Below the pieces are notes generated by a model, which did not search any database, was not told the origin of the DNA, and worked only from the letters and a program-made list of their open reading frames with translations. The translations under genes and the position numbers were made by a program. From Peptococcaceae bacterium (lineage in GTDB: Bacteria > Bacillota > DSM-12270 > Thermacetogeniales > Thermacetogeniaceae): a stretch of DNA of 11,625 nucleotides. Positions 1-9,174 of this stretch are shown in pieces. Numbering within the stretch: the stretch's first letter is position 1; each line of letters opens with the position of its first letter. Location of the stretch: NCBI GenBank assembly GCA_003160265.1, contig PLQY01000100.1, positions 24,359 to 35,983 on the forward strand. The letters are read 5' to 3'.

Positions 1-217
1 TAGCACCTGTCGCTCCAGTTGCTCCGGTAGCTCCAGTAGCCCCGGTGACCCCGGCTCCGGTTGCTCCAGTAGCTCCGGTAGCTCCAGTTGCCCCAGTAAC
101 TCCCGTGGCTCCGGTAGCTCCGGTAGCCCCAGTTGCCCCGGTAGCGCCGGTGACCCCGGCTCCGGAAGCTCCGGTTGCCCCGGTTGCCCCAGTCTCCCCG
201 GTTGCCCCGGTTGCTCC
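1..217 (-). repeat. Collagen-type GAT triplet repeat tract (9-nt tandem repeat)
   Basis: The tract is a degenerate 9-nt tandem repeat (GGN GCN ACN read on the minus strand) encoding Gly-Ala-Thr triplets, with occasional GET, GAS and GVT variants. The triplet phase is broken twice by a dipeptide GA before GVT (Gly-X-Gly interruptions), in DNA near 44-60 and 149-165. These two breaks are exactly 105 nt apart, which suggests an internal duplication of a 35-residue block. The tract reaches the window edge, so its full length is unknown. Such repeats vary in copy number between strains. Confidence 0.9.
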
Positions 218-412
218 ATGTATGGGTACCCACTCGCATCCGTTGCAGCGATAGAGAATATTAGTATGGATATCCACGAAAAGGGCGCCGTCATTATCTA
301 CGCAGCAATCTGGCCTTTCCCATAGCTCATCCTCCTGGATGGAAGGTGCCCCTCCATTATTTTTTACAAAGTCATCATTCCCGTCGGGGCACTCTGTTGG
401 TTTTTCACTCAT
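1..412 (-). CDS. Collagen-like (Gly-Ala-Thr)n protein, N-terminal part
   Basis: The open minus-strand frame begins at ATG 412-410 and continues past the left edge without a stop, so only the first 137 residues are visible. An SD-like GAGAGGTG (420-427) lies 7 nt upstream. Residues 1-65 form a non-collagen head with Cys8, Cys36, Cys37, Cys56 and Cys59. The stretch [16 protein letters not shown] (43-58), followed by W61, resembles the short 'LY-D-TG-LY-W-G-W' segments that precede collagen repeats in many bacterial collagen-like and tail-fibre proteins. From G66 onward it is almost pure G-A-T triplets. In the BclA family such Gly-X-Thr repeats form a triple helix and carry O-glycans on Thr; the same fate here is inferred from the glycosyltransferase genes directly upstream. 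The cysteines could crosslink trimers or anchor the protein. Family assignment is firm; spore-surface location is inference. It is the last visible gene of the minus-strand cluster, 123 nt after the GT2 gene. Confidence 0.85.
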
Positions 413-508
413 CTCGCTCACCTCTCTCGATATTAACTGGGTTGTTGAAAAGGGATCGGCAGCGTAAGATCGTCACCAACCTTGCAATTCAAGGAAGATC
501 TGCCTTAA

Positions 509-537
509 TATGGTATGATATGAATATAAAGAATGTT
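509..537 (-). promoter_or_regulatory. Candidate sigma-K-type promoter for the collagen-like gene
   Basis: Read on the minus strand there is AACA (537-534), a 16-nt spacer, then CATACCATA (517-509). This fits the Bacillus sigma-K pattern mACm - 16/17 - CATAnnnTA. The -35 overlaps the stop codon of the GT2 gene and the -10 lies about 97 nt upstream of the collagen-like ATG. The consensus is short and the DNA here is AT-rich, so chance is possible. Support comes from the nature of the downstream gene, since BclA-like genes are late mother-cell genes. Confidence 0.4.
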
Positions 538-6744: not shown

Positions 6745-6800
6745 TTGCTTGACTGTTTCCTTTCTGGCGCCTGAACCTGCAGCAGATCACCTACGGGTTG

Positions 6801-7658
6801 TTACGCGCCTGTCTTTTTGATGATCAGACCGATGGATGTCGACACCCAGTTCAAAAGTTGCAGTCTGAGGTGCGGCTTGAAAGTGTAGGGCGGTAGATCG
6901 ACGCAGGTGTTTTTCAGTTCCGTACCCGATTCCAGGTCGATCTCGATCTCGTGTCCCAGGTCTCTCAGGGTTTGTGCCATATCTTCAATGTCCTTTTTCC
7001 TGAAGAGCACCAGGGCGCCCTGTTCCATCGTGTCTTCGTTCGAAGAGAGGTTGTATTCGGTGGTGTGCACCGCGATGCCGCCAGACCGCAGACATTCCAT
7101 CTGATCGATCAGGAACTTCTTGCCCAGCTCGATGGAGCCGCAATGCTCGAAAGCGCAGGAAGACCAGGTAAAATCAAATTGATTGGCATATCGGTCCGGG
7201 ATCTGGTTCATGTCGACGTTTTCATAGGCAACCAGCCTGGAAAAAGCGGCCGGATCGCACAAGCCATACTCATTCAGGCAATCGATGCCGGCAGCATGCT
7301 GATCGGAGTTCGCCCACCCCGCCTTTTGAGCGCTGTCCAGATCCAGATCCGTGGCTTCAATAGCGCAGCCACGAGATGCGAATAGCGATACCAGCGGCTC
7401 CTTGCCCACACCGAATCCCAGCCCCCTGCTGCCGGGAATCAGCAGCCCTCGTTCCGACAAGGCCTGGTAGATGTAGCAGAACTCCCAAAACTTGCGATGA
7501 TAGAGAATCGGAAGCAGCGCCTCCGCATTCAGATGATGGAGATTGACTTCGATATAATGACGTATATACGCCTGAAAGGTTTGATAGAGCAGGCTACTAC
7601 CGGTGTCAAACCATTCAGCGTCAAAATCACTTTCCTTACAGAGTTGCGATATCAGCAC
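6801..7658 (-). CDS. Class I SAM-dependent methyltransferase
   Basis: The 285-residue protein has a Rossmann-type methyltransferase core. RGLGFGVGKEP (78-88) is the glycine-rich SAM loop (motif I). EATDLD (101-106) supplies the acidic residue for the SAM ribose. FDFTWSSCAFEHCGS (161-175) corresponds to motif IV, and CLRSGGIAVHTTEYN (189-203) to the following strand. Residues 1-70 are helical and may contact the acceptor. GTG 7658 is chosen because GGGAG lies about 10 nt upstream; no ATG fits better. This is the first gene after the candidate promoter at 7685-7712. In glycan clusters such enzymes often methylate a terminal sugar hydroxyl or amine, as in the methylated anthrose of BclA glycans; that role is inference from context only. 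Confidence 0.85.
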   Translation of the reverse strand: MLISQLCKESDFDAEWFDTGSSLLYQTFQAYIRHYIEVNLHHLNAEALLPILYHRKFWEFCYIYQALSERGLLIPGSRGLGFGVGKEPLVSLFASRGCAIEATDLDLDSAQKAGWANSDQHAAGIDCLNEYGLCDPAAFSRLVAYENVDMNQIPDRYANQFDFTWSSCAFEHCGSIELGKKFLIDQMECLRSGGIAVHTTEYNLSSNEDTMEQGALVLFRKKDIEDMAQTLRDLGHEIEIDLESGTELKNTCVDLPPYTFKPHLRLQLLNWVSTSIGLIIKKTGA

Positions 7659-8190
7659 TCTCGTTTCACTCCCAGGTTTTACTTATTATGTTATTCAGCA
7701 CCGGTTAATCAATGTCCGCAACAGTGGGGCCGGCATCCAACCACGTTTGGTGGTGGGCGATTGGTCGTTGGATTCATGCCCGTCTGCAGGCCTATCATTT
7801 TTGTGTTGGCCGCCAAAACCTTTGTTTCTCTAACCGCTGCCCACCAACCACCAATATACCCAGATGCTACCTTAATACAGTATGTAAACCGGGGTGAGGG
7901 TGTTACCTTTCTTCCGGCATTGATCATTTTCCCGCGGCCAGACCCCCGTCCGGCGAAGCACAAATGGGGGATGAGCTGATGATAGCTTCACGGTGAGTAA
8001 CTGTTAAATAATGGCATGCATATTATGATCAGGATTTATCCGTCTATCAGGCAGTCGGCAATTTACCCCACCAACTTGAAGAACAAGCCACTCGGGCTGC
8101 TGCGCCCTCTTCGATATGGCTCGGACTGCAGCCTGGAGGAAGAAAAGCTATACTTGCCGATCAATCATGGTATGTATGGGAGGAGATTGT
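7659..8190. other. Divergent intergenic region with nested inverted repeats, no gene seen
   Basis: About 530 bases separate the divergently transcribed methyltransferase and dehydratase genes. I find no convincing gene; the short open frames lack start signals and protein-like composition. The left end carries the minus-strand promoter. Between 7731 and 7780, GGCA-TCCAAC (7732-7741) pairs with GTTGGA...TGCC (7767-7780) with a bulge, enclosing ACCAC-GTTTG-GTGGT. A further imperfect inverted copy of the GGTGGTGGGC segment (7749-7759) occurs at 7842-7857. TTGGC-C-GCCAA lies near 7809-7819. Structured RNA, operator sites or a degenerate miniature element are all possible. Confidence 0.5.
7685..7712 (-). 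promoter_or_regulatory. Candidate sigma-A promoter of the glycosylation cluster
   Basis: Read on the minus strand: TTGATT (7712-7707), a 16-nt spacer and CATAAT (7690-7685). The -35 matches four and the -10 five of six consensus bases. Transcription would begin around 7678, about 20 nt before the methyltransferase GTG. CATAAT also resembles sporulation-sigma -10 elements, but no matching -35 was found. Confidence 0.5.
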
Positions 8191-9174
8191 GTGAAGGTAC
8201 TGATTACGGGAATAACTGGGTTTGTCGGCAGCCATCTGGCGGAATTGTGCCTACAGAAACCGGAGGTGAAGGTATGCGGAACGGTGCGCACCCGTAGCCG
8301 GCTGAACAACATCAGCCATCTCATACCCAGGCTGGAACTGCACGAGTGCGACCTGCGGGACCCGTTTTCCGTGCAGAAGGTGCTGGCGGAGGTGGCACCG
8401 GACTACATCTTCCACCTGGCTGCCCAGAGCTTCGTGCCCGCTTCCTGGAAGGCGCCGGAGGAGACCATCTCCACCAACGTTCTCAGCCAGCTCAATATAT
8501 TTGAAGGAATACGCCAGCTCAAACTGGAAACGCGGGTGCAGATCGCCTGCTCGTCCGAACAGTACGGCCTGGTCTATCCCGACGAACTGCCGATCGGTGA
8601 GGACAACCCGTTTCGGCCGCTCTCTCCGTATGGCGTGAGCAAGGTCGCCCAGGACCTGCTGGGGTACCAGTACCACGCCTCTTATGGATTGCATATCGTC
8701 CGCACCCGGGCATTCAATCATACAGGGCCGCGCCGGGGAGAGAGCTTTGTCACATCCAGCTTCTGCAAACAGGTGGCGGAGATCGAGGCCGGGAGGCGCC
8801 TGCCGGTGCTGCGCTGCGGCAACCTGGACGCCCGCCGGGACTTTACCGACGTGCGGGACATGGTACGCGCCTACTGGCTGGCTCTCGAAAAGGGCGAACC
8901 TGGAGAGGTCTACGTGGTAGCGTCAGGCACTGCGTACCTGATCCGGGAGGTGTTGGACACCGTGCTGGCCAACACCAGGTGCAGTATCAAGGTGGAGAAT
9001 GCGTCGGAGCTGATGCGGCCTTCGGATGTGCCGGTCCTGTTGGGCGATGCCACCAAGTTCCGCAACCTCACCGGTTGGGTGCCACAGATCCCCTTCGCCA
9101 AAACCATGAGCGACCTGCTGGATTACTGGCGGATGGTGATCACCGAAGAGGCTGCCTGCAAGCATACCGTTTGA
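8191..9174 (+). CDS. Extended SDR of the GDP-mannose 4,6-dehydratase / RMD type
   Basis: The 327-residue NAD(P)-dependent nucleotide-sugar enzyme has a glycine motif GITGFVG (7-13) binding the cofactor, FHLAAQS (74-80), SSEQYG (121-126) and the catalytic pair Y147/K151 (YGVSK). FNHTGPRRGESFVTSSF (175-191) and GNLDARRDFTDVRD (210-223) are typical of GDP-mannose dehydratases and, for the latter, of GDP-4-keto-6-deoxymannose reductases. Dehydratase versus reductase is not settled. Start: GTG 8191 lies 5 nt after GGGAGGAG (8178-8185) and begins exactly at the Rossmann strand; an upstream in-frame ATG (8116) adds unrelated residues. Length fits the family. It is transcribed divergently from the glycosyltransferase cluster and probably makes a deoxyhexose donor (GDP-rhamnose or GDP-fucose type) for it; this link is inferred from proximity. 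Confidence 0.87.
   Translation: MKVLITGITGFVGSHLAELCLQKPEVKVCGTVRTRSRLNNISHLIPRLELHECDLRDPFSVQKVLAEVAPDYIFHLAAQSFVPASWKAPEETISTNVLSQLNIFEGIRQLKLETRVQIACSSEQYGLVYPDELPIGEDNPFRPLSPYGVSKVAQDLLGYQYHASYGLHIVRTRAFNHTGPRRGESFVTSSFCKQVAEIEAGRRLPVLRCGNLDARRDFTDVRDMVRAYWLALEKGEPGEVYVVASGTAYLIREVLDTVLANTRCSIKVENASELMRPSDVPVLLGDATKFRNLTGWVPQIPFAKTMSDLLDYWRMVITEEAACKHTV

Follow-up and report, generated by a model that had tools for sequence, protein, structure and literature searches.

The subject of this work is an 11,625-nucleotide stretch of DNA from a Peptococcaceae bacterium (GenBank assembly GCA_003160265.1, contig PLQY01000100.1), called the window below, in which the start of a collagen-like gene lies beside genes for glycosyltransferases (GTs), a B12-binding-domain radical S-adenosylmethionine enzyme (rSAM), and a methyltransferase (MT). 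The window is probably part of a late mother-cell island for spore-surface glycoproteins, in which two units meet. One consists of the collagen gene and an adjoining family 2 GT with tetratricopeptide repeats (GT2-TPR), encoded outside the window; the other, apparently older, is made of MT, GT4, rSAM, GT4, GT4, and GT2 genes together with a short-chain dehydrogenase/reductase (SDR) gene. A preliminary description of the window had taken the whole locus as dedicated to building and attaching a glycan on the collagen-like protein. Across genomes, the co-occurrence with collagen that this idea called for was found for the GT2-TPR gene and not for the rSAM cluster.

A collagen gene and its glycosyltransferase partner

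The window corresponds to positions 24359-35983 of contig C91 in a genome (G000) of 1.78 Mb that is 84.7% complete. Read from right to left on the minus strand, it holds the MT, GT4, rSAM, GT4, GT4, and GT2 genes and the start of the collagen gene, with the SDR gene divergent on the plus strand (Table 1). This arrangement is as first described, except that the collagen gene does not end the series, which continues to the left of the window with the GT2-TPR gene, a further GT4 gene (GT4d), and a CAP-domain gene. On the right, beyond the SDR gene, there are housekeeping genes for RNase PH, XTP/dITP diphosphatase, and YfcE phosphodiesterase.

The Gly-Ala-Thr frame reported on the minus strand is indeed collagen-like: its tandem array (1-217) is interrupted by two 2-residue breaks and matches Pfam Collagen (PF01391) with 33.3 bits, over the cut-off of 27.2. 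The open reading frame (ORF) covers 2-421, with a probable ATG at 412 behind the ribosome site GAGAGAGGTGAGC. The left edge of the window is an assembly gap (NN) within the repeat. When the sequence is extended leftward, using a 19-kb stretch that reaches from the left into the window (L004), the repeat resumes beyond the gap, again above the Pfam cut-off, and terminates in a BclA_C domain (PF18573; 58.3 bits, cut-off 38). It resumes in another frame, as expected across a gap of undefined length, and the BclA_C fragment is joined to the window half by scaffolding across the NN. The N-terminal domain of the protein is rare: at E ≤ 0.001 it occurs in two of the 299 genomes of the phylum that were searched, G000 and G290, and a protein search gave one match among length-limited candidates. 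The exosporium targeting motif of Bacillus was not seen in its 65 residues, which were read by eye with no motif search.

The source is a spore-forming bacterium of the Peptococcaceae/Thermacetogeniaceae type, and the Firmicute-type host first proposed agrees with the genome, which contains genes for both CotJA and CotJB. An MT homologue with 70% identity is labelled Thermacetogeniaceae, a family whose NCBI class is now Syntrophomonadia; by kinship, the organism would live anaerobically. CotJA itself (L006:4029-4385, adjoining CotJB) has a short collagen-like stretch, PGYPGMPG.

The most consistent partner of the collagen is the GT2-TPR gene (L004:14448-15521; 357 residues). It lies just outside the left edge of the window and adjoins the collagen gene, from which it is separated in G000 by 234 nt that include an NN. 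Its GT2 domain scores 78.4 bits (cut-off 23.3). Among its solved relatives, the best match is GmaR (4e-27), a flagellin O-GlcNAc transferase, and SunS is among the next. Homologues at E ≤ 1e-40 occur in 29 of the 299 genomes. A collagen match is present anywhere in 24 of these 29 genomes, versus 81 of the other 270 (Fisher P 4e-8, from a hand count that ignores kinship).

How close are the two genes to each other? A collagen ORF, defined as at least seven consecutive Gly-X-Y triplets, lies within 1 kb of the GT2-TPR gene in 16 of 28 other genomes and within 2.5 kb in 19 of them, versus none of 406 control genes; kinship is ignored here too. Genes were called greedily by ORF length, and G000 was left out of the 28 since this procedure missed its own collagen frame. 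The comparison covers 32 stretches, which represent all 29 genomes and part of 42 listed places; the 20 control stretches were picked by hand from 20 genomes that have a GT2-TPR gene, and those that share its contig are at least several kb distant from it. A member of the same family, G012, also has the collagen/GT2-TPR pair, with 54% identity between the GTs and a short collagen repeat that falls under the Pfam cut-off.

The radical SAM unit and its relatives

The second unit tells a different story. The 101 relatives compared include three genomes of the genus: G000, G001 (98% complete), and G002 (71% complete). The order in G001 is RdgB-RPH-SDR-MT-GT4a-rSAM-GT4b-GT4c-CAP; in G002 it is split over two contigs, RdgB-RPH-SDR-MT-GT4a and rSAM-GT4b-GT4c-GT2w-GT4d-CAP. 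Neither congener has a collagen gene at this site, and the interval from GT4c to CAP is free of N in both. Neither genome has a homologue of the GT2-TPR enzyme at E ≤ 1e-40; this gene is not repetitive, so the mere loss of a repeat during assembly becomes a less likely cause, though G002 is only 71% complete. Elsewhere in these genomes, the sole collagen match is one of 22.6 bits on another contig of G001, and G002 has none. Thus, the rSAM cluster lies beside collagen in one of three genomes of the genus, and collagen as its conserved partner has to be rejected for this genus. The preliminary description had itself named related clusters that regularly lack a collagen gene as the finding that would speak against it, and both congeners carry such clusters, which weakens the case for a locus dedicated to the collagen glycan.

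A wider survey gave a similar picture. At E ≤ 1e-60, none of the 101 relatives outside the genus has the rSAM, whose identity in G001 is 77%. In named genomes, the best 80 of 544 confirmed rSAM loci exceed 40% identity only in G001, and an ORF scan found a collagen ORF in none of these 80; distant relatives are spread over many phyla, and GT and SDR genes lie close to some of them. The MT occurs in three of the 299 genomes at E ≤ 1e-30, and in two of 46 genomes of the class of G290 at E ≤ 1e-40. In G290 and G309, both outside the genus, it adjoins a distant GT4-like gene, and the stretches read contain no collagen ORF. No window-type cluster was found in the stretches around BclA_C matches in other genomes.

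Could the entire set, rSAM included, nevertheless serve to build and cap the collagen glycan? We regard this as unlikely, although it is the alternative that fares best. The genes are adjacent on one strand, sigma-K-type promoter sites precede both units, and the source species alone could have recruited the second unit to its collagen. Furthermore, the only other collagen with the window-type N-terminal domain is in G290, on a different contig from its MT gene, and both genomes with this domain are among the three that have the MT. Against it stand the two congeners, which keep the second unit with neither the collagen at the site nor the GT2-TPR gene, the near lack of collagen elsewhere in them, and the MT clusters of G290 and G309. 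Unless both congeners have lost it, the collagen/SgtA-type pair was likely inserted between GT2w and GT4d of an older spore-glycan island that is probably linked to sigma-K.

As for the enzymes, the presence of a methyltransferase and a GDP-sugar enzyme has held up. The SDR belongs to PF16363, and its best solved relative is 2pk3, a GDP-6-deoxy-D-lyxo-4-hexulose reductase (RMD) from Aneurinibacillus (281 bits, versus 204 for the next). In the rSAM, the CX3CX2C motif is invariant in 14 sequences, and PF02310 is matched with 58.7 bits (cut-off 32.1). When compared by fold with MgmA, AprD4, OxsB, CysS, and TsrM, to which its identity is only 18-24%, the MgmA-like and AprD4-like assignments are tied; it stays under the cut-off of every NCBIfam family among the matches listed (25 of 27). 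The MT has no Pfam match at E ≤ 0.001, and at E ≤ 0.1 only methyltransferase matches below the cut-off; its predicted structure shows the fold of class I methyltransferases.

Other features near the cluster deserve mention. In G002, a class I methyltransferase domain is fused to the N-terminal side of GT4a (L213:3828-5509, a stretch that contains NN). The CAP/YkwD-type protein (L004:12093-12884) has a signal-like start and a linker rich in Thr or PT; it is encoded by the cluster's side in each of the three genomes of the genus and is a possible alternative acceptor. A protein with a match to the NTTRR-F1 domain (L004:10156-10644) scores 62 bits where the cut-off is 70. Three further proteins of 181, 353, and 400 residues (L004:2138-2683, 6954-8015, and 8236-9438) have no Pfam match and have G001 homologues with 61, 70, and 42% identity.

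Promoter sites and the weighing of the readings

When would these genes be expressed? Two perfect sites of the pattern MACM-N16-CATANNNTA, which we take to be a sigma-K consensus, are present in the window, versus 0.02 expected, and none of 200 shuffles contained two. The pattern was suggested by the site before the collagen gene, and the site before the MT gene was then found with it. As written, it had no match in the literature searched; published descriptions give an AC/CATA core for the sigma-K element (PMC3789822) and a spacing of 15±1 between longer elements (PMC517825, PMC3789822). In G001, a perfect site occurs at the aligned position before the MT gene, within a spacer that has otherwise diverged. 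The L004 stretch has four perfect sites, versus 0.07 expected, and five of the 11 perfect sites of G000 fall in one 22-kb stretch of the window's contig. With uniform placement, the probability of such clustering is 1.3e-7 for a stretch picked after seeing the matches, and 2.1e-5 for the whole contig. Of the five sites, one precedes a further GT2-TPR gene and one precedes only a short, unassigned ORF. The sites before both units suggest expression in the late mother cell and, with the BclA_C domain and the GT2-TPR partner, strengthen the spore-surface assignment made at the outset.

L004 encodes two more GT2-TPR proteins (2809-5223 and 5225-6778), one of them with 804 residues and two GT2 domains; both have close homologues on contig C13 of G001, and the gene for the other protein is the one found behind a perfect site.

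Several observations weigh against the reading of the island as two spore-surface units. With regard to the promoters, the MT-side site is degenerate in G002, and the genome-wide counts of perfect sites exceed those of a reversed control only modestly (11 vs 6 in G000, 16 vs 9 in G001), so that a single site is weak evidence. The compared genomes show no enrichment of such sites upstream of collagen/GT2-TPR genes (4 of 60 vs 12 of 326, P 0.29), and the -10 elements of sigma-E and sigma-K are alike (PMC3789822). With regard to the GT2-TPR enzyme, TPR_2 is barely over its cut-off (27.6 vs 27 bits), the match to the SunS model (74.5) is far under the cut-off of 350, and the stretches examined show no collagen ORF for nine of the 28 genomes, among them G235, where the GT gene was not called, and G233, where it lies at a contig end. 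No GDP-mannose 4,6-dehydratase (GMD, TIGR01472), which would supply the substrate of an RMD, scores over the cut-off in G000 (84.7% complete), G001, or G002 (71% complete); some GMDs carry out both steps (PMC3584063). Finally, there are NN joins within the collagen repeat, between the collagen and GT2-TPR genes, and between GT2-TPR and GT4d, and the gene order on the left therefore depends on scaffolding. The N-terminal domain of the collagen occurs once more (77% identity) at the edge of contig C29 (L159:1-296), cut by the contig end, with a closely similar promoter region that includes the same kind of site; the BclA_C fragment could consequently belong to either copy.

Two other explanations have to be considered. 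The second unit might serve the vegetative cell, with an ordinary surface polysaccharide or an S-layer glycan as its product and the collagen pair as an accidental neighbour. The MT family does extend beyond spore formers: a plasmid search gave seven records, from Rhizobium, Sphingobium, and Phyllobacterium, and in the two loci examined its neighbours are genes for ABC transporters, GTs, and methyltransferases in one case and gmd and rmd in the other, from Sphingobium. The latter two are equally distant from the SDR of the window (31 and 32% identity, respectively), and this locus therefore adds weak support only. The distant rSAM relatives near GT and SDR genes in many phyla would also fit. 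The perfect, aligned site before the MT gene of G001 and the concentration of sites around the window point the other way, and make this explanation improbable. Least likely of all is a scaffolding artefact that brought the BclA_C fragment and the GT2-TPR gene from elsewhere, e.g., from the C29 collagen copy: NN joins do flank these fragments on both sides and a second N-terminal copy does sit at a contig edge, but the start of the collagen gene is contiguous with GT2w inside the window, and other genomes, G012 among them, have collagen/GT2-TPR pairs as well.

Table 1. Genes and promoter sites of the window, numbered from its first nucleotide
Feature	Position	Strand	Remarks
Collagen-like gene, 5' part	1..412	-	65-residue Cys-containing N-terminal domain, then (Gly-Ala-Thr)n
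Collagen repeat	2..217	-	72 residues in the window, 21 of them Thr and 25 Gly
Sigma-K-type promoter site, AACA-N16-CATACCATA	509..537	-	About 97 nt before the collagen ATG
GT2w, GT2 glycosyltransferase	536..1507	-	Pfam; 85% identity in G002, not at the locus in G001
GT4c, GT4 glycosyltransferase	1636..2763	-	Pfam
GT4b, GT4 glycosyltransferase	2932..4203	-	Pfam; paralogue of GT4c (62%)
rSAM, with B12-binding domain	4200..5546	-	PF02310 and PF04055; CX3CX2C at residues 209/213/216
GT4a, GT4 glycosyltransferase	5584..6744	-	Pfam; fused to a methyltransferase domain in G002
MT, class I SAM methyltransferase	6801..7658	-	Probably the first gene in its operon
Sigma-K-type promoter site, AACA-N16-CATACTGTA	7876..7904	-	Before MT; perfect site at the aligned position in G001, a degenerate one in G002
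Sigma-K near-match, AACT-N16-CATATTATG	7999..8027	+	SDR side; same near-match in G001
GDP-sugar SDR	8116..9174	+	Most similar to GDP-4-keto-6-deoxymannose reductase (RMD); true start probably near 8191

Known systems and what the island may mean

Among known systems, the BclA exosporium nap of Bacillus shares with the window a collagen repeat and a BclA_C domain. It differs in that the window comes from an anaerobic lineage and has a GDP-sugar reductase beside the cluster, while Bacillus uses dTDP-rhamnose. The collagen repeat of Bacillus is densely glycosylated (PMC10050317).

Another likeness is to the BclA3/SgtA system of Clostridioides difficile, in which, as here, a BclA-type collagen with Thr in its repeat adjoins a GT2 protein O-glycosyltransferase. 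The likeness is one of gene content and arrangement, with two differences: the pair of the window lies inside a larger GT4/rSAM/MT island, and its collagen has the rare Cys-containing N-terminal domain. The gene CD3350, listed below, is presumably sgtA. SgtA puts beta-O-GlcNAc on Thr of BclA3 repeat peptides, and sgtA lies immediately upstream of bclA3 (PMC7157674). Another study (PMC3789822) places bclA1-3 under sigma-K control, which parallels the sigma-K-type site before the collagen gene of the window, and has CD3350, a family 2 glycosyltransferase, in the same tables. In the titles and abstract openings searched, which leave most subscription journals outside, a radical SAM enzyme is not paired with a BclA-type collagen.

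How would the two units work? In the first, made of the BclA-type collagen and the adjoining enzyme of the SgtA/GmaR kind, the GT2-TPR protein would, by analogy, place the first sugar, probably an O-linked GlcNAc, on the threonines of the repeat. The second, with its MT-GT4-rSAM-GT4-GT4-GT2 operon and divergent GDP-sugar reductase, may turn a GDP-6-deoxyhexose, probably D-rhamnose, into a methylated oligosaccharide; the rSAM would act on the sugar, either by C-methylation or by deoxygenation. A bolder and quite tentative idea is that a sigma-K-controlled B12/radical SAM enzyme remodels a sugar derived from a GDP-6-deoxyhexose on spore-surface proteins and has here been joined to an SgtA-type enzyme and a collagen, which could then carry a radically modified, methyl-capped glycan.

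If two units do meet in this island, spore glycoproteins of the BclA/SgtA-like kind would extend to an uncultured anaerobic lineage, and the enzymes would divide between two tasks: the GT2-TPR protein would go with the collagen, and the MT, the GT4 enzymes, and the rSAM with an older spore glycan. Should the radical SAM step also prove true, radical chemistry would have a place in the assembly of spore-surface glycans.

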